This document shows positions 5,132 through 27,172 of a stretch of DNA of 32,172 nt, piece by piece (position 1 is the first letter of the stretch; each line of letters starts with the position of its first letter). Under the pieces are notes generated by a model, which was not told where the DNA came from, did not search any database, and worked only from the letters and a program-made list of their open reading frames with translations. The position numbers and the translations under genes were made by a program. The DNA comes from a virus. The DNA lies in the IMG/VR virus record IMGVR_UViG_3300023175_000136, positions 1-32,172 of that record. One strand, given 5' to 3'.

Positions 5132-5659
5132 TTATGCGTCAGGATCAATTTGAGTGCCTGAAGCATCGTCTGTAATTACTGTAGAAGTAACAAAGTATGC
5201 TGGAGATGTCTCCATAGCTTCAAATGTCAAAGTGAACCCTGAAAGGTCTCCCATCGCTGCTCCTGAAACTACAGTACCGCCTGTAACTTCAGCTCCGTGT
5301 TCTAGTCCTACTAGGAAAAAGTTTCCATTGTAATCCTCGATAGCGATATGTGGTCTAGCTGCTGCTAGCAATTTGATTTCCTCTTGAGTAGACTTATCTA
5401 AGTAAGTCAAAGTCATATTAAGAGTCTGTGTATAAAAAGTAGTACCATTCTCTCTTGAAGAGTTGATTGTAGTCTCTAAGCTAGAATTACCTTTAATATC
5501 ATACTGATACCAAGTAGGCGTTCCTGCTAAGGCTGTAATCTCTCCTGAAGCAATGGTAGCTGTACCTAAAGTTCCGTAATCTGCAAAGTAAACTGTTTTC
5601 AGTCCACCTACAGCCGACTTACAAGGTAGCGATCTTCCTGATGTTAAAGCACAAGCCAT
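5132..5659 (-). CDS. Major tail tube-like protein (putative)
   Basis: 175 aa, starting MACALTSGRSLPCKSAVGGL with two early cysteines, followed by alternating strands (KTVYFADYG, FTLTFEAMETSPAYF). This N-terminus is characteristic of an abundant structural protein of Bacteroidota phages; the beta-rich build and size fit a tail tube, but head decoration is not excluded. It is flanked by terminators on both sides, as expected for genes whose dosage is tuned separately. No CGTTATATA motif precedes it, so it is probably reached by read-through of the terminator after the capsid gene. Confidence 0.55.
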   Translation of the reverse strand: MACALTSGRSLPCKSAVGGLKTVYFADYGTLGTATIASGEITALAGTPTWYQYDIKGNSSLETTINSSRENGTTFYTQTLNMTLTYLDKSTQEEIKLLAAARPHIAIEDYNGNFFLVGLEHGAEVTGGTVVSGAAMGDLSGFTLTFEAMETSPAYFVTSTVITDDASGTQIDPDA

Positions 5660-13126: not shown

Positions 13127-16120
13127 TTACGGACAGCTAGGATTAGATATTAAAGATAATGTAGATCCACTCCAATACCAAGTATTTGATCCATCACTAT
13201 ACCATCTTGCACTAGTTAATAATGTACCGCAGGTAGAGTCAAATCCATATACCTCTGTTGCGTTTGCGAAAGTAGATCCATTATGGTAAACAGTTCTAGT
13301 GACTGTCTGAGTACAATAAGCATCCTCTGCTGATACAGTAGAAACATATAAAGAAGCGCTATTACAAAGTGCCGTAGGAACTGGCGTAGGCGTAGGAGTA
13401 GGCACACTACCTTCACACTCCGAACAGCTAGAATATTGTGCAAATGTATCTATATCTCCATCAACTCCTGTACCTCCTCCATCGTAATACTCAAAACATA
13501 TATTATTATCTTTTAAGATAACGCTTGTAGATATTGGACTTGTATCACTTACCTGTATAATCGCTCCACTAGGCGCATCACACTCTATAAATCTAGCATA
13601 GTAAGTTGTAGGCGCTGTTGGAACTGGAGTAGGAGTAGGGGTAGGGGTAGGCGTTGGAGAACAAGACTGACACCCTAATAAAGAAGCCTGATTCCAATAT
13701 CTATAATTTGATCCATCTGAATAGTATCCTATAGGAGCAGCTGTTGTACAATTAGAGTCTGTATAAATACTATTAATAGAACAGAAACTAGATCCATCTG
13801 CATAGTATATAGTGCTACCTTCCAGACAAGCATTATTACCTCCTACGTTACTATATTTTAACAATATAGCTGTACAAGTTGGAGCTGTAGGCACAGGCGT
13901 TGGTGTTGGTGTAGGGGTAGGAGTTGGCGCTGTGGGTACAGGTGTTGGCGTAGGCGTGGGCGTAGGAGTTGGTGTGGGTGTTGGTGTAGGAGGTGCTGTA
14001 GGCACAGGAGTGGGAGTAGGAGTAGGAGTTGGTACTGGAGTAGGTGTCGGTGTTGGAGTCGGTGTAGGCGTAGGTACTACTGTAGCAACTGAAATTAAAT
14101 TTAATAACTCTAAATTACTCTCTCCTGTTTCTAGGTTACTCTCAATGCTGTTAATTTTGTAAACTCTATCTAGTATTTGTACTTTGTCTGCTAGAGTGTA
14201 ATTAAGTAAGAAGTTGATAGGCAAATAAGCTTTGACTTTTGTTAGTCTTAGCTTAGTATTAAAGATCTCTTCTATATATGTTTTGTAATAGTTCTCAAAT
14301 AGAGTTCCCTCAAAAGAAGTGTCTAGTGTATATTCATTAACCTCTAAGTTAAAGTTTATATTTGAGTCATCTGTTGCTGAGTCAACTATAGTGCTGTTTG
14401 AAGGTATGAAATAAGTGCTAATATCTGTATAGCTGCTTATTGTATCATTTAAGAATCTAATACTATCTCCTGTTATAGATACAGGATAGAATAACAAAGG
14501 TTTGCCAAAGTAAGGATCATTGTTGTCATCTACAAACCATCCTACCTGTACTGTTTTTAATGTACTTCCAGATCCATCTATAAGTCTTTCATATTTAAGA
14601 TGCTCAAATGGTGCTTTTACGCTATAAATCTCTCCTCCTGCATCGTAATTGTCATCTCCCTTGTATTCTACAGTACCCCATTCTACATTGTTTACCTGCT
14701 GGTGTTGTATTGCTAGTTTAGTTCCTAAGCCTTCATATCCAAAATCTACTTCTTTAAAAGGCAGCGCTATATCTACATTACTATCACCTACAGCTACATA
14801 GTCGCTGATATCTCTTATGGTTGTAGAATCTGCATAGTAATTATCTAAGGTTTTTACAACAACTATCTCATCTTCATAGTAAGCAGTAAGATTAAACATC
14901 TTAAATAACCCTGTGAGAAAGTCAAGAACTTTCATCTTAGGTATTTGCTCTGTGATAATAAAGTTCTGTGTAGTAGTACTGCTAAAAGCTCCTGTGCTAT
15001 ATGTTTTGCTTTCCCCTGTGAAAGTATTGCTAACAAACATATCTACTGAAGAGAAGTTTATAGCAGAAGTAGTATATAAGAATACCTGATACCCTGTAGA
15101 AGAGTTAGTGAGATACCCTGTTATAAGTCCTGTACCTCCTCCTATTACGTTTTCTTGTTTATATATTACTCCATCTTTTTTAATAATTATAGAGTAGTCA
15201 TCTGTAGTAGTAGTGTTGACTGTTAAAGAATAAGCAAGCTGAGAAGAGGATGTCATTCCAAAAACTTGAAAAGCAGATCCATTACAAAAAACTCCTGTGA
15301 CAGTTAAAGGATATGTATCAGCAGGAAAGCCATCTACTAAAGTTGTAACAGGATCTCCCTCATCAAAAGCACTACCCTTTTTTCTATGAAGCCACATATA
15401 CAGCTTGTAATATGGATCATTTGTAGAATTAAAGAAATCTGTAGAGAATGTTATGCCATAAGTCTGCTCTATTGCCTTTATAATGATATGTACAGGAATA
15501 GCATATTTAAGCTCTCCATAAAACACACCCTGCATAGTAGTGCTATTAGGGTGCAAGTTTCCACTCCCAGCTGATGGTATAGAACTATCATAATAGAGTC
15601 GAGTAGTGTGAGATATTAATGGAGCTACTAAAGCATCTGTATAAGTAACGCTATCTACAGTTTTATCTATACCTCCTGTTAAAGCTGATCTAACTTCAGT
15701 TGCATTGTAGTCATTGTTAAAATTATCTAGCCAGTCTAATGAGCTTAGGGTGTCCTCTCCTAATAAGTCTTTTAAATCTACTGTGTTTCCATAGAAGGTA
15801 ACTTTGTAAGTATGAGGCTTTCCATCTTTTAACATTACCCCATCTAATCTAATCTTACCTTTCCTGAATGCTTTGTTATTTAGTTCTAATTTAGCTGTCT
15901 TTTTCTTTCTAGCATCGTAACCATTATCTATATCGTAGTTGTAATAATGCTTAAATATTTTATTATTAAGCTTAGAAGCAGGAAGGCTAAAAGTCTTAGT
16001 AAAGTCCGTAAATACTTTTGCAATGTCTTTAACATTTTGAATAGTTTGCGTAATAGTTACTGATTCATCTTTAAATAAGTCTACTCTCTCTCCTTCTATG
16101 TACAACTGTAGTACCTGCAT
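13127..16120 (-). CDS. Large tail-tip protein with Pro-Thr linkers and Cys-containing C-terminal modules
   Basis: 997 aa. Residues 1 to about 675 form a tail protein body: [23 protein letters not shown] and [14 protein letters not shown] are typical of a large tail protein of flavobacterial phages, possibly a hub or distal tail protein. From about 680 to 747 follows a (PT)n linker with PVPTAP interruptions, then three modules of 60-80 aa separated by more PT linkers. Modules 1 and 3 share C-rich ends and YYSDGSN/WYSDGSN followed by a Tyr-Trp (YRYW, WYW); module 2 is different. This looks like stalks holding beads, with exposed, possibly receptor-binding, ends. The gene follows the 305-aa tail protein directly and is linked by one base to the dioxygenase. 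Confidence 0.7.
13879..14075 (-). repeat. Long Pro-Thr coding repeat
   Basis: About 65 codons alternating Pro and Thr, broken by V-P-T-A-P groups. Codons vary (CCT, CCA, CCC and ACA, ACC, ACT, ACG), so this is selected at the protein level, but the 6-bp periodicity can still expand or contract. Shorter stretches of the same kind occur at about 13609-13658 and 13371-13410. On the plus strand it appears as a spurious Gly-Val frame. Confidence 0.9.
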
Positions 16121-18744: not shown

Positions 18745-18747
18745 ACT

Positions 18748-18777
18748 TATATAACGTATTTTTTGAATTATTTTTAA
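18748..18777 (-). promoter_or_regulatory. Bipartite late-promoter-like motif before the chaperone gene (weaker)
   Basis: Minus strand: CGTTATATA (18756-18748), 3 bases before ATG. Twelve bases upstream is TTAAAAATA (18777-18769), 7 of 9 matching TGCAAAATA. It follows a strong terminator at 18782-18810. Confidence 0.5.
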
Positions 18778-18781
18778 AAAT

Positions 18782-18810
18782 AAAAAAAGGGTAGCAAAAA
18801 AGCTACCCCT
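18782..18810 (-). terminator. Rho-independent terminator after the terminase module
   Basis: On the minus strand GGGTAGC-TTTTTT-GCTACCC forms a perfect 7-bp stem followed by seven T. It separates the terminase transcript from the tail module. Confidence 0.95.
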
Positions 18811-18839
18811 TAACTAAAAACAATTAATCAAATATGAAA

Positions 18840-18947
18840 CTAAGAGATTCCCATAGCTGAATCTGCAATCTTACATAGGACTAAAAATGCTACAGTACCT
18901 ATAAGGGTTACCAAATGAAGGATAAAGTATTTTTTAAAGTATATCAT
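18840..18947 (-). CDS. 35-aa single-span membrane peptide
   Basis: The sequence begins MIYFKKYFILHLVTLIG and carries one hydrophobic segment (about residues 8-25) ending in a short DSAMGIS tail. The ATG overlaps the TGA of the 64-aa gene upstream (ATGA), which supports translation. It ends 30 bases before the terminator. Role unknown; it could be a small membrane-acting peptide. Confidence 0.6.
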   Translation of the reverse strand: MIYFKKYFILHLVTLIGTVAFLVLCKIADSAMGIS

Positions 18948-19138
18948 AATTCAAGTTTTTCTATTATTGCCTGTTCTATATTAGAGTTAATCAAGTTCTT
19001 TAACTCTCTACCATCTTCTGTAGTAACACTTACTAAGAAGCAGTTGCCTTTATATCCTACTGAATAATCAGCAGCATCCTGTTCATACTCTATGTAGTAT
19101 GTTCTATCGTTGTACATTAATTTTCTAGTGTCTAACAT
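18944..19138 (-). CDS. Hypothetical 64-aa protein
   Basis: Acidic and small, with YYIEYEQDAADYSVGYKGNC and a C-terminal helix EQAIIEKLEL. Starts with ATG shortly after a host-type promoter match (19154-19183), so it may be transcribed independently of the terminase genes. No family recognised. Confidence 0.55.
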   Translation of the reverse strand: MLDTRKLMYNDRTYYIEYEQDAADYSVGYKGNCFLVSVTTEDGRELKNLINSNIEQAIIEKLEL

Positions 19139-19153
19139 AATATTTATTTTTAG

Positions 19154-19183
19154 CTAATATACAACTATTTTATTAATTAACAA
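19154..19183 (-). promoter_or_regulatory. Host-type promoter (TTG-N19-TATATTAG)
   Basis: On the minus strand TTG (19183-19181), 19 bases, TATATTAG (19161-19154), which is one base off the Bacteroidota -7 consensus TAnnTTTG at the known spacing. It lies in the 61-base AT-rich gap after terL and upstream of the 64-aa gene. Confidence 0.45.
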
Positions 19184-19199
19184 ATTAAAATAACTTTTT

Positions 19200-20360: not shown

Positions 20361-20676
20361 TCTCTACCTCTATTTTAGCAGGCATACCATCTGCTCCTGT
20401 TATCTCTTGTCTTTCTACATAATCTCGCTTCTTACCCTTAGTTCTTAGGTAGAATAATATCTCGTTGGTCTTACCTTTTTTTATGTTTTCTAGAAGCTTG
20501 CTTTCTGCTAGATCTATTAAGCCTTCTTGAATACTATCTATCTCATCTGCAAAATCCTCATCTGTGTTCTTCCAGTTGTAGTACGTTTTTCTAGCTATTC
20601 CTGCTGCCTCACAAGCTTCCTTTACATTTCCTAGCTTTGCTGCAAAGGCATCTAAAAACTTTTCTTTATCTCTCAT
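20332..20676 (-). CDS. terS: Terminase small subunit (putative)
   Basis: 114 aa. An N-terminal helix-turn-helix (LGNVKEACEAAGIARKTYYNWK, about residues 15-36) resembles the DNA-binding end of small terminases of the phBC6A51 type, followed by a helical oligomerisation segment (SIQEGLIDLAESKLLENI) and a C-terminal tail. It overlaps terL and the DnaA-like gene upstream. Role: recognises the packaging site and feeds DNA to TerL. Confidence 0.75.
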   Translation of the reverse strand: MRDKEKFLDAFAAKLGNVKEACEAAGIARKTYYNWKNTDEDFADEIDSIQEGLIDLAESKLLENIKKGKTNEILFYLRTKGKKRDYVERQEITGADGMPAKIEVEIVNRFEDKD

Positions 20677-21160
20677 TTGTGTGTAATTCGTGTACTTTCA
20701 AATTTAACTCTCTTGTAAACTCTTCTTTTATCTGTTCATACTCAGACTCTTCTTGAAGCTCTTTACTTTCTAAAATAATATTCTCTTCATACATTTCTCT
20801 TACCATATCACTAAGCTTCATAATATCTCCCTCGTTTAGGTAATCTACTTTCAGCTTAATGTATTCTTTTCTCATCTCTACTTTATCATATCTCTCGCTT
20901 ATTAGGATATCATAGAGATAAGTTTCTAGCCTTTCATTGTATTTAAGATACATATCAAAGCTCTTTATTGAGTGTAATATTGTAGCGTGATTAAAACCCA
21001 TTATTCTACCTATGTGAGAAGCTCCAAACTTATGGTATTTATGCAGCAAGTGTATATATAACCCTCTTGCTTCTACTACTTCTCTTTTTCTTGTTTTTGA
21101 ATAAGGATCATATCCTGTTATTTTTTCTATTTCTGCTCTCAGTTTTATTTCTTTTCTCAT
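20666..21160 (-). CDS. DnaA domain IV-like DNA-binding protein
   Basis: 164 aa. Residues about 25-75 (REVVEARGLYIHLLHKYHKFG, IGRIMGFNHATILHSIKSF) match the DnaA C-terminal DNA-binding domain: the basic helix, the helix-turn-helix and the NHATILHSI signature are recognisable. There is no AAA+ ATPase domain, so it is not an initiator by itself. The C-terminal half is an acidic helix. It could bind the phage origin or DnaA-box-like sites, or interfere with host DnaA. It overlaps the exonuclease-like gene and terS. Confidence 0.75.
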   Translation of the reverse strand: MRKEIKLRAEIEKITGYDPYSKTRKREVVEARGLYIHLLHKYHKFGASHIGRIMGFNHATILHSIKSFDMYLKYNERLETYLYDILISERYDKVEMRKEYIKLKVDYLNEGDIMKLSDMVREMYEENIILESKELQEESEYEQIKEEFTRELNLKVHELHTNER

Positions 21161-23111: not shown

Positions 23112-23259
23112 TTTTTCTGTTTATTTCAATTCGGTTTAATATATCTCTTCTAGCATCACAGCCGCAATCTTCAACTCCAAACCAGCCAGTTACTTTTTTT
23201 ACTATCCATTTGATCCCTGTGTACTTAAATATTGTTTCTAATAAATCTCCTAATCTCAT
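23095..23259 (-). CDS. Small protein with C-x-C zinc-like motif (54 aa)
   Basis: RLGDLLETIFKYTGIKWIVKK then DCGCDARRDILNRI. The L-G-D---E ... TGIK ... DCGCD-R---LN pattern recurs in Bacteroidota phages as I recall it. The ATG overlaps (ATGA) the stop of the sigma-factor gene, and the end overlaps the next gene by 17 bases. Unknown function. Confidence 0.65.
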   Translation of the reverse strand: MRLGDLLETIFKYTGIKWIVKKVTGWFGVEDCGCDARRDILNRIEINRKNGRGR

Positions 23260-23750
23260 AATAATCTATCTTTTAAAATTTGCTTTACTTTCTTGTAAGT
23301 GTTATACAAAGAGTAATAACTTATACCTGTATTTCTTGACAACTCCGATACAGACATCTCTCCATCTAAAAGCTCAAATACTTTTCTATCATACCAGTAC
23401 AAGTCCTCTAGTGTTTCCATTACATCTCTATGTAGCTCCTTGTGAGTTTTGTCTCCTATTGTATCCTCATCAGCTTCTAGCTCTAGCAAATAAAACTCTG
23501 CCTCATCTGTATAACTTACTCTTTTTTCTTTCCTCTTTAGATCTATAAATAACGTTCTGAGTATTTTATAAATATAGTAGTAGTTTACTGTCTCATCGTA
23601 TTTTATATCTATTCCTGATTCGATTAATCCGTGTAATTTTATATACATTTCTTGAACTAAGTCCTCAGCTGTATCACTATTGCATCCAAAGGATTGTACT
23701 ATCTCACACCATTGCTTGTGTTTCTTATATGCTTCGATTAATACATCCAT
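23256..23750 (-). CDS. Phage-encoded sigma factor, ECF-like (sigma-70 family)
   Basis: 164 aa with only sigma regions 2 and 4. Region 2: CNSDTAEDLVQEMYIKLHGL (about residues 23-42), the AEDLVQE-x-F/Y segment that binds core RNA polymerase, then YYYIYKILRTLFIDLKRKEKR. Region 4: MSVSELSRNTGISYYSLYNTYKKVKQIL (about 132-159), a helix-turn-helix for the -35 element. No anti-sigma domain. In the phage it could redirect host RNA polymerase to late genes; the bipartite motif at 5044, 7331, 9213 and 18748 is the obvious candidate target. It overlaps the 62-aa gene by one base. Confidence 0.7.
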   Translation of the reverse strand: MDVLIEAYKKHKQWCEIVQSFGCNSDTAEDLVQEMYIKLHGLIESGIDIKYDETVNYYYIYKILRTLFIDLKRKEKRVSYTDEAEFYLLELEADEDTIGDKTHKELHRDVMETLEDLYWYDRKVFELLDGEMSVSELSRNTGISYYSLYNTYKKVKQILKDRLL

Positions 23751-25529: not shown

Positions 25530-25638
25530 AATAATTGTTTTGATTAATTTCTAACTTTGCCTCTAACTCGGCAACTTTGTTTTCTAGTGCTTCAACTCTA
25601 GCTACATAAAGTCTTAGCAAATCTTCAGTGTAAGTCAT
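25519..25638 (-). CDS. Small coiled-coil protein (39 aa)
   Basis: MTYTEDLLRLYVARVEALEN then KVAELEAKLE with a clear heptad pattern of Leu/Val, a single short coiled coil that could be a dimerisation or leucine-zipper module. It overlaps the 46-aa gene at its start and the 122-aa gene at its end, as expected for a translated gene. Confidence 0.6.
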   Translation of the reverse strand: MTYTEDLLRLYVARVEALENKVAELEAKLEINQNNYYAK

Positions 25639-25765
25639 TGCAAATAACTTTAAAGTTTGATCTGCTTTCTAACTCTTTTTTGCAAGCTTTGCGATAAGCG
25701 TCTAGTAATTCAGGATTTTGTACAGCATCCAGCAACTGTTCATTAGTGTAATATTTAATATTCAT
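25625..25765 (-). CDS. Hypothetical 46-aa protein, first gene behind host-type promoter
   Basis: MNIKYYTNEQLLDAVQNPEL followed by AYRKACKKELESRSN, helical with two Cys in the second half. The ATG lies about 10 bases from the predicted start site of the TTG-N18-TATATTTG promoter. The end overlaps the coiled-coil gene by 14 bases. Unknown role. Confidence 0.6.
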   Translation of the reverse strand: MNIKYYTNEQLLDAVQNPELLDAYRKACKKELESRSNFKVICNDLH

Positions 25766-25781
25766 AATACTTAGTTTTCAA

Positions 25782-25810
25782 CAAATATAAATAAATATTT
25801 TATAAAACAA
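25782..25810 (-). promoter_or_regulatory. Host-type promoter TTG-N18-TATATTTG (downstream copy)
   Basis: Minus strand TTG (25810-25808), 18 bases, TATATTTG (25789-25782), exact for the Bacteroidota TAnnTTTG box. Predicted start about 25775. It follows the terminator at 25809-25842 and drives the 46-aa gene and those after it. Confidence 0.6.
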
Positions 25811-25842
25811 AAAAAAGGAGCAAAAAAATTAATTCTTACCCC
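25809..25842 (-). terminator. Terminator between two host-type promoters
   Basis: Minus strand AGGGGTAAGAA pairs with TTTTTTGCTCCT, allowing G-U pairs that exist only on this strand, then a run of T. It ends transcripts from the NinG gene and from the promoter at 25874-25902. Confidence 0.7.
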
Positions 25843-25867
25843 TCTTTTAACAAGTATTATGATAAAC
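25809..25867 (-). ncRNA. Possible short untranslated RNA between promoter and terminator
   Basis: A perfect-consensus host promoter at 25874-25902 is followed after about 60 bases by a terminator, with no ORF in between. It could be a small RNA, or the leader of an attenuated transcript read through into the genes below. No conserved RNA family was recognised. Confidence 0.3.
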
Positions 25868-25873
25868 TTACAG

Positions 25874-25902
25874 CAAATATAAGTATTATCAGGTTATTTC
25901 AA
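25874..25902 (-). promoter_or_regulatory. Host-type promoter TTG-N18-TATATTTG (upstream copy)
   Basis: Minus strand TTG (25902-25900), 18 bases, TATATTTG (25881-25874), same spacing as the copy at 25782-25810. Its predicted transcript (start about 25867) would run into the terminator at 25809-25842 after about 60 bases without coding for anything. Confidence 0.5.
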
Positions 25903-26280
25903 AACCTTTTTGAGTTCTTTTTCATAGTGCCTTACCATATCTTCTAGCTCATCTATAGAAAACTTTACTGTAGTTTTACTAAGCATATACATTTTTTCAG
26001 CTGTTTCTTTTCCTAATCTCTTTCCAAACTCATACTGCATCCCTTGCTTCATAACATTACAACCATAGCATTGAGGTCTACAGTTATCTTCACTCCATCT
26101 ACTAGCATAATTTTTTCTACTCATAAAGTGTCCATTTTGTATTTTTTTAACAGGATATTCCCTATCACAAGTGAAACACTTTACAACTCCCTGCTTATTA
26201 GCATATTTATTTCTAATATACAAAGAGAAAACAGCATCTAGCTTTTTAACTAGTTTTGACCTAATAGGCTTTTTAGCCAT
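25894..26280 (-). CDS. ninG: NinG-like recombination protein
   Basis: 128 aa. Zinc-finger/HNH-like core: CFTCDREYPVKKIQNGHFMSR (Cys35, Cys38, His51) and WSEDNCRPQCYGCN (Cys67, Cys71, Cys74), which match the C-x2-C, Q-N-G-H-F, N-x-R-P-Q-C-x2-C-N layout of lambda NinG/Rap, a structure-specific protein acting on branched DNA. C-terminal charged helix follows. It overlaps the upstream gene by 8 bases. In phage replication it helps recombination intermediates. Confidence 0.85.
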   Translation of the reverse strand: MAKKPIRSKLVKKLDAVFSLYIRNKYANKQGVVKCFTCDREYPVKKIQNGHFMSRKNYASRWSEDNCRPQCYGCNVMKQGMQYEFGKRLGKETAEKMYMLSKTTVKFSIDELEDMVRHYEKELKKVLK

Positions 26281-26521
26281 TTGTTAAATCCTTTTCATTC
26301 ATATGAGCCTCTAAGATATAACCATCTATCGGACTAATGCTAGCTATAGCTTTGTAAATCTTTTTACTAATTCCTTTTACTTCTGCTTTTTCTTTTTTAG
26401 AAGATTCGATTCCTAGATTTGTATACATATTGCTATCCATTTCTAGTAAAGCATCTACTTTCCTCTTAACACTCCAAGTCTTATAACCACTAATCTTTCT
26501 AATTTTTTCTAAAATTTCCAT
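26273..26521 (-). CDS. Small helical protein, first gene after the control region (possible regulator)
   Basis: 82 aa using the ATG at 26519-26521; a TTG at 26536 gives 87 aa. The sequence RKISGYKTWSVKRKVDALLE and MDSNMYTNLGIESSKKEKAE is a basic helical protein without clear membrane or catalytic parts. It is the first gene leftward of the repeated dyad motif region, so it is an obvious candidate to bind those sites, but a helix-turn-helix is not certain from sequence alone. Similar proteins occur in flavobacterial phages (from memory). Confidence 0.55.
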   Translation of the reverse strand: MEILEKIRKISGYKTWSVKRKVDALLEMDSNMYTNLGIESSKKEKAEVKGISKKIYKAIASISPIDGYILEAHMNEKDLTNG

Positions 26522-26536
26522 ATCTTTTTCTTGCAA

Positions 26537-26755
26537 GTTATAAAAATTATTTGTTTTTTTTTACTATTAGCTACTTCTTAGCTATATACTCTTAGCTACA
26601 TAGAATAACTAAATACACTAGCTACTCTAAGAATAGCTACTCTAAGAGTAACTTGTTTATAATTAAAATAAGCCTTTCTAAGAGTTAATAAGTTTGCTGT
26701 TGGTATATTACCACCATAAAAGACTAAAAGTCGCTCTAAGAGGCTATAAAGTGTC
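26537..26755. promoter_or_regulatory. Gene-free control region with repeated dyad motif (operator or origin candidate)
   Basis: 219 bases without a convincing ORF, the largest gene-free stretch. It holds about six copies of a motif related to TACTCT-n-AGAGTA: 26572-26584, 26587-26599, 26623-26635, 26638-26650 (perfect 6+1+6 dyad), 26677-26685 and 26732-26744. The two central copies belong to a tandem 14-base repeat with period 15 (26619-26632 and 26634-26647). A second dyad TGGTA-TAT-TACCA lies near 26701-26713 and a weak GACT-n3-AGTC hairpin with T-tract at 26717-26732. No clear host -7 box was found. It separates the lysis cassette from the early genes, as expected for an operator or an iteron origin. 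Confidence 0.65.
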
Positions 26756-27172
26756 TTATTTGTGATGTTTGTTTCCTAGTATCTTCTCAGCTCCTCTGCT
26801 TCCAAAATATCCTATAAATACAATTTGCAACAATTCTTTGACTATTTCTAACTCGCTAAGTTGCAGTCCCCAGCCTACAACAAAAGCAATAGTTAAAAAA
26901 GCTAATGTTAATGGTCTAACATTTTGAGCAAGCCAGCTAGAGCTTCTAGAATCTGCTACCCATCTTCTTGTAATGCCATCTATTTCTGCTCGCTCTATTC
27001 TTAGTTTCTCAAGAGCCACATCTTTATCCTCAGCAGACATATCTGAGCCACCTATAATAGCCTCTATAACAGAACCTACTGGAGTATCTTCTGCTATCTT
27101 ACTAACTACATTAGGAATTTTTTTTAAAAGAAATTGCCCTACTGCTGTATCTTTAAACTTCTTTTTCTCCAT
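26756..27172 (-). CDS. Holin, GTA/3TM-type (putative)
   Basis: 138 aa. An amphipathic N-terminal part with TPVGSVIEAIIGGSDMS, then ITRRWVADSRSSSWLAQNVRPLTLAFL entering a membrane span (about residues 85-106), and a second hydrophobic helix ELLQIVFIGYFGSRGAE. The RRWVADxRSxSWLAxNVRPLTL stretch is the hallmark of the GTA_holin_3TM family. It lies directly after the M15 peptidase with a 20-base overlap, a typical holin-endolysin pair. Function: permeabilises the inner membrane to release the endolysin. Confidence 0.8.
   Translation of the reverse strand: MEKKKFKDTAVGQFLLKKIPNVVSKIAEDTPVGSVIEAIIGGSDMSAEDKDVALEKLRIERAEIDGITRRWVADSRSSSWLAQNVRPLTLAFLTIAFVVGWGLQLSELEIVKELLQIVFIGYFGSRGAEKILGNKHHK

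Follow-up and report, generated by a model that had tools for sequence, protein, structure and literature searches.

A clade-restricted cluster of repeated half-sites upstream of p82 and ninG as a putative transcription control region in uncultivated marine phages

What function is served by the largest stretch of a phage genome in which no gene is found? The question is raised by the IMG/VR virus record IMGVR_UViG_3300023175_000136, of which the whole stretch analysed here, 32,172 bp in length, is referred to as the window. Nearly all genes of the window lie on the - strand, and the largest intergenic stretch without an ORF of 40 aa or more is located at 26522-26755. The first-pass annotation described it as the only large gene-free region, in agreement with our finding that the other two large gaps, 25530-25893 and 18745-19199, contain small ORFs; its placement between lysis and early genes was also correct, the neighbours being holin and endolysin on one side and a small four-helix protein plus NinG on the other. 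The features that frame the locus are as follows.

26756-27172, - strand: holin, upstream neighbour of the gap (PHROG 3427, lysis, 1e-11)
26522-26755, 234 bp, read on the - strand: putative intergenic control region between the holin and p82 genes (no ORF, k-mers above shuffles, locus conserved)
26273-26521, - strand: p82, a four-helix protein of 82 aa, with its true start at ATG 26521
25894-26280, - strand: NinG-type endonuclease, overlapping p82 (Pfam NinG, 8e-10; PHROG 5034, 6e-23)
25782-25848, - strand: terminator-like hairpin (25848-25811), then a perfect host-type promoter TTG-N18-TATATTTG (25810-25782)

Along the - strand the order is thus tail fibre genes, endolysin, holin, the gap (26755-26522), p82 (26521-26273) and ninG, followed by two small genes, a DnaB-like helicase gene, a sigma-like gene, a DnaA domain IV-like gene, terS, terL and the structural genes. 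The start of p82 was set at 26521 because its homologues start there, and the hairpin and promoter after NinG mark where the p82-ninG unit ends. In the near relative G001 the gene order is identical but the contig opens elsewhere on it, which indicates that the map is circular or permuted and that the window is close to a whole genome. Both contig ends (window positions 1 and 32172) fall in tail fibre genes; G001 is continuous across this junction and has its own opening between g18094 and g17541. The phage is an uncultivated, marine one. Its host is probably a member of the Bacteroidota, since, by terminase or helicase, the isolates closest to it are Bacteroides, Cellulophaga and Maribacter phages (about 26-35% identity only) and since host-type promoters of the Bacteroidota kind are present in other gaps of the window. 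No relative of p82 was found in bacterial genomes, and therefore neither a lysogen nor a host can be named.

The following elements were recognized within the gap.

26561-26608, - strand: direct half-units TTATTCTATG, TAGCTAAGAGTA, TAGCTAAGAAGTA and TAGCTAATAGTAA, with a spacing of 9-14 bp
26619-26639, no strand: site 1, extended imperfect palindrome TAGCTACTCTAAGAATAGCTA, core 26623-26635 (from the sequence)
26634-26654, no strand: site 2, extended palindrome TAGCTACTCTAAGAGTAACTT, perfect core 26638-26650 (from sequence and alignment)
26677-26685, no strand: outlying half-unit TCTAAGAGT
26701-26713, no strand: separate short palindrome TGGTATATTACCA; the relatives also show a GGT..ACC dyad here
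26732-26744, no strand: outlying dyad-like unit CGCTCTAAGAGGC, adjoining the holin stop (from the sequence); G001 carries GACTCTTAGAGCA in its place

The perfect palindrome of 6+1+6 that had been noticed earlier is present as TACTCTAAGAGTA at 26638-26650, and its tandem partner, a copy with one mismatch at 26623-26635, is offset by the predicted 15 bp; sites 1 and 2 overlap in a common TAGCTA, and the core of site 2 was found in 5 of the 6 aligned genomes. The count of about six dyads was, however, an overstatement: the gap contains 3 perfect dyads whose arms are 5 or longer, against 3.9 expected, and two copies only come within one mismatch of TACTCTNAGAGTA. All others are half-sites or shortened versions of the unit (TCTAAGAGT, TAGCTAAGA). 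The part of the proposed repeat cluster that was confirmed is the enrichment of short repeats. Repeated 6-, 7- and 8-mers within the gap (both strands) form 92, 45 and 22 pairs, compared with shuffle means of 55, 20 and 6, values that were reached by 1, 5 and 2 of 1000 dinucleotide shuffles, respectively. The whole window shows no excess over chance of matches with up to 2 mismatches (5 against 3.7); the signal is their clustering in the gap. No other copy of the sites was found upstream of other genes, and thus no wider regulon is visible. The element is better seen as clustered half-sites, either TACTCT or TAGCTAAGA; two neighbouring ones form overlapping extended palindromes around TAGCTACTCTWAGAGTAGCTA.

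Conservation was examined in relatives collected by searches with p82 and NinG. The same array is located between holin and p82 in five of them (L082, L083, L085, L086 and L087), an outcome that agrees with the conservation check asked for in the first-pass annotation. The number of units varies: alignment A2 shows 38-40 nt of extra units in L082/L083 and 11 extra nt in L085-L087. The spacing, predicted to be conserved, is not, because units are gained and lost. The arrays are 78.5% (window and G001), 78.7% (window and G002) and 81.2% (G001 and G002) identical, compared with 59-61% for shuffled controls (maximum 74%) and 59-64% for fourfold-degenerate sites of the shared genes. For an unbiased test of clustering, the densest 200-bp stretch was sought for those 7-mers that recur in the window gap (19 in number, homopolymers left out). 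It coincided with the syntenic gap in both G001 (28, with 8 for the second-best stretch) and G002 (39, with 9 for the second-best); the peak was absent in seven other relatives scanned (G004-G006, G008, G010, G012 and G015). The piece of G003 scanned stops short of the gap, its array being seen in L083. BLASTN of the region against phage records gave no match, and a pattern scan of viral contigs with TACTCTWAGAGTAGCTA gave 13 stretches, 4 of them in contigs of known relatives and several estimated to be chance matches. Somewhat more distant relatives carry gap repeats of a TATATA type, quite unlike TACTCT. The cluster of DNA sites at the boundary of lysis and recombination genes is real and restricted to a clade.

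Repeats of other kinds were observed as well. The G012 record (L204:10068-10294) has a 227-bp gap with a ACCGTACCCAAA repeat at both ends and T-rich runs between. In the window, imperfect tandem repeats rich in GGTGT/GGAGT occupy 13877-14074, within the gene at 13127-16120 for a protein of 997 aa, and the GC skew is locally inverted there. Related phages have TTCTTAAACGCAGTAGG, of about 17 bp, directly repeated some five to seven times downstream of terL, at L194:12581-12686 and at equivalent places in G005, G008 and G010; these repeats lie near the cumulative GC skew maximum and are iteron-like or an origin candidate in that clade. Both these repeats of the G004-type phages and the array contain TTCTTA..GTAG, yet homology between them cannot be shown.

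A further observation concerns the promoter pattern upstream of p82. The consensus of Bacteroidota sigma ABfr promoters is TTTG/TAHHTTTG (PMC6847099), and the TAHHTTTG box was sought within 200 nt upstream of p82 in the 42 relatives for which this sequence was available. All 30 relatives with a plain gap carry the box, 21-77 nt upstream of the p82 start, and in several of them a perfect TTG lies another 20 bp upstream; the promoter of a plain sister-phage gap has the form TTG-N-TAACTTTG. The box is absent within this distance from all 12 repeat-rich gaps, which are of the TACTCT type or, in seven records (L084, L088-L091, L094 and L095), of the TATATA type. For the complete promoter (TTG and TAHHTTTG with 17-21 bp between), the best match in the array gap scores 7/9, a score equalled by 160 of 200 shuffles. 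The gap between ninG and an ssb-like gene, as a reference, has a 9/9 host promoter, TTG-N17/18-TATATTTG, in all three array genomes tested. Judged by the 12/12 against 30/30 split and the 9/9 promoter in the next gap, the array occupies the spot at which the sister phages have a host-type promoter. This dichotomy is confounded with phylogeny: the array phages are each other's nearest relatives, so that probably a single replacement took place and not twelve independent ones. An A-rich stretch adjoins the array and follows it, and one strongly conserved element only is found between the array and the start codon.

26531-26543, - strand: conserved TTATAACTTGCAA directly ahead of the p82 start codon, unchanged across the six aligned genomes, with no TTG at -33

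At a guess, TTATAACTTGCAA could be a non-canonical promoter element.

Two other genes of the window encode candidates for a protein acting at the array.

20666-21160, - strand: candidate binder with a DnaA domain IV (Bac_DnaA_C) helix-turn-helix, adjoining terS (Pfam 1e-9; no AAA+ match)
23256-23750, - strand: candidate regulator resembling sigma-70 region 2 (Pfam Sigma70_r2 1.3e-5, slightly above the curated cut-off) and HTH-like in a C-terminal stretch

DnaA domain IV was matched in each of the 15 relatives searched, the match passing the curated cut-off in 11. The DnaA-like recognition helix reads NHAT in the four array-clade sequences, and D replaces N in all others (DHA[TVC] or DHT). The protein is a reasonable candidate binder, but this N/D correlation follows phylogeny. 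As for p82 itself, four helices were predicted (pLDDT 89), with no significant match to solved structures, no recognizable relative among DNA-binding folds, no Pfam family above cut-off and no tblastn match in phage records. It is 64% identical to one viral protein of unknown name and has 30 invariant columns among 22 sequences. Its C-terminus is nearly invariant (GYxLEAHMNEKDL), and the protein was found in dozens of marine phages. p82, suggested as a binder in the first-pass annotation, is unlikely to be a dedicated array binder: it is equally conserved in dozens of relatives without the array, so that it is not specifically tied to the array, and it has no fold match.

Given the observed enrichment of repeats, the conserved locus and the lack of a host-type promoter that sister clades and the next gap possess, we propose, at a probability of roughly one half, that the gap is a cis-acting, putatively protein-bound control region of the p82-ninG operon, in which a non-host-type promoter is used in place of the displaced host-type one. 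The tandem TACTCT/AGAGTA half-sites, some paired as 13-bp dyads with a 15-bp period, would be bound by a dimeric or array-forming protein of phage or host origin. The array would have replaced the host-type (sigma ABfr) promoter used by the sister phages at this spot, and transcription of p82-ninG would start at the weak, non-host-type element TTATAACTTGCAA just downstream of the array, depending on the array-binding protein or on the phage sigma-like protein. The mode of regulation may be activation rather than repression. Alternatively, read-through from the lysis genes could transcribe p82-ninG, leaving the array free for another role.

The main rival reading, possible though clearly less likely, is that the array is an iteron-type origin, at which an initiator, for example the DnaA domain IV protein, binds direct half-sites and the A-rich stretch melts for loading of the phage helicase. 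Iteron arrays are prone to changes in unit number, and the number of units here does differ among relatives. Most TACTCT half-sites of G001 and G002 are oriented in the coding direction as direct repeats, a one-way arrangement that resembles iterons more closely than a dyad operator set. The array is present in a single copy per genome and is followed by the A-rich stretch; a DnaA domain IV match is present in every relative searched, the NHAT helix being confined to the array clade; a different clade has 17-bp iteron-like repeats elsewhere, after terL. The half-sites of the relatives are mostly direct and many are 9-15 bp apart, but their spacing runs from 4 to 39 bp and helical phasing is weak (R 0.33-0.53), the canonical DnaA box (TTWTNCACA) is absent from the array, and the N/D change of the helix is confounded with phylogeny. 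Nor does the cumulative GC skew, proposed as a check, have an extremum at the gap: the tail genes and the terL/portal region hold the extremes. After detrending, these lie at - strand positions 2432 and 14015, far from the array at 5418-5651, and most relatives have the maximum near terL. Since all genes lie on one strand this test is weak, and it only weakens the origin reading. The plain promoter at the same spot in the sister clade argues that the spot is not a conserved origin. A regulatory or origin-type array, the class to which the operator set or iterons suggested at first belong, is the right one, without the conserved spacing and the skew extremum.

The repeats might also be a functionless by-product of passive slippage at a module boundary, as AT-rich repeats arise easily, their unit number varies, and more distant relatives carry the quite different TATATA repeats at this locus. 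This is improbable: motif identity stays at 78-81% where fourfold sites fell to about 60%, and the motifs form no second cluster in the genomes scanned. It is about as improbable that the gap acts as RNA, with the repeats forming hairpins on a read-through transcript by which the p82-ninG message is terminated, protected or regulated. The window array folds somewhat better than shuffles (z -2.5), and the consensus fold retains 95% of pairs with the larger insertions falling in loops. Among array relatives, however, z lies between -0.2 and -2.7 and the predicted structures are not the same; the whole gap gives z -1.35, two-sided changes were seen in only 3 of 53 pairs of the A2 consensus fold, and the array pairs are for the most part invariant. 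Repeats that are self-complementary will fold even when there is no selection for RNA, the Rfam search gave no credible match, and the other terminators of the genome are strong hairpins with long T runs, which are absent in the gap. A structured RNA element was rejected, a conserved fold with covariation support being lacking. Because the fold tests came out poorly, function as duplex DNA is favoured. A long shot, finally, would unite replication and transcription: a phage DnaA domain IV protein without the AAA+ ATPase might have been recruited to a fast-evolving array of its own sites, firing both replication and the p82-ninG operon and replacing the host-type promoter kept by the sisters.

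Tandem arrays of operators or activator sites are known from phage control regions such as OR/OL of lambda. As in OR/OL, several sites, some of them near-palindromic, are clustered at a putative promoter region between transcription units, overlapping and with a fixed local spacing. Unlike OR/OL, the array is not at a divergent promoter pair, no recognizable repressor gene is nearby, the sites lie upstream of and not over the candidate promoter element, and the half-sites of the relatives are mostly direct. The origin of the V. cholerae PLE satellite is an iteron origin bound by a RepA-type initiator (PMC7145576), and the array shares with it semi-palindromic direct repeats in a noncoding region adjoining an A-rich tract. 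It differs in that no RepA-type protein was found in this phage, the unit lengths are irregular and the GC skew does not mark the site. Compared with the sigma ABfr promoter of Bacteroidota (PMC6847099), the sister phages have one at the same location before the same gene, while the window clade lacks it and has the repeat array instead. The kind of element is familiar; what is of interest is its setting, together with the dichotomy of promoter or array within one family.

The phages concerned belong to a large marine group that seems to be uncultured, and none of the isolated phages in the collection searched is closely related to them. In this region, a search for their regulator or initiator has a defined piece of DNA to start from. 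With the same gene placed behind a host-type promoter in some sister phages and behind a repeat array in others, the family provides a natural contrast, in which the change from host-type early expression to expression under phage control can be put to the test.
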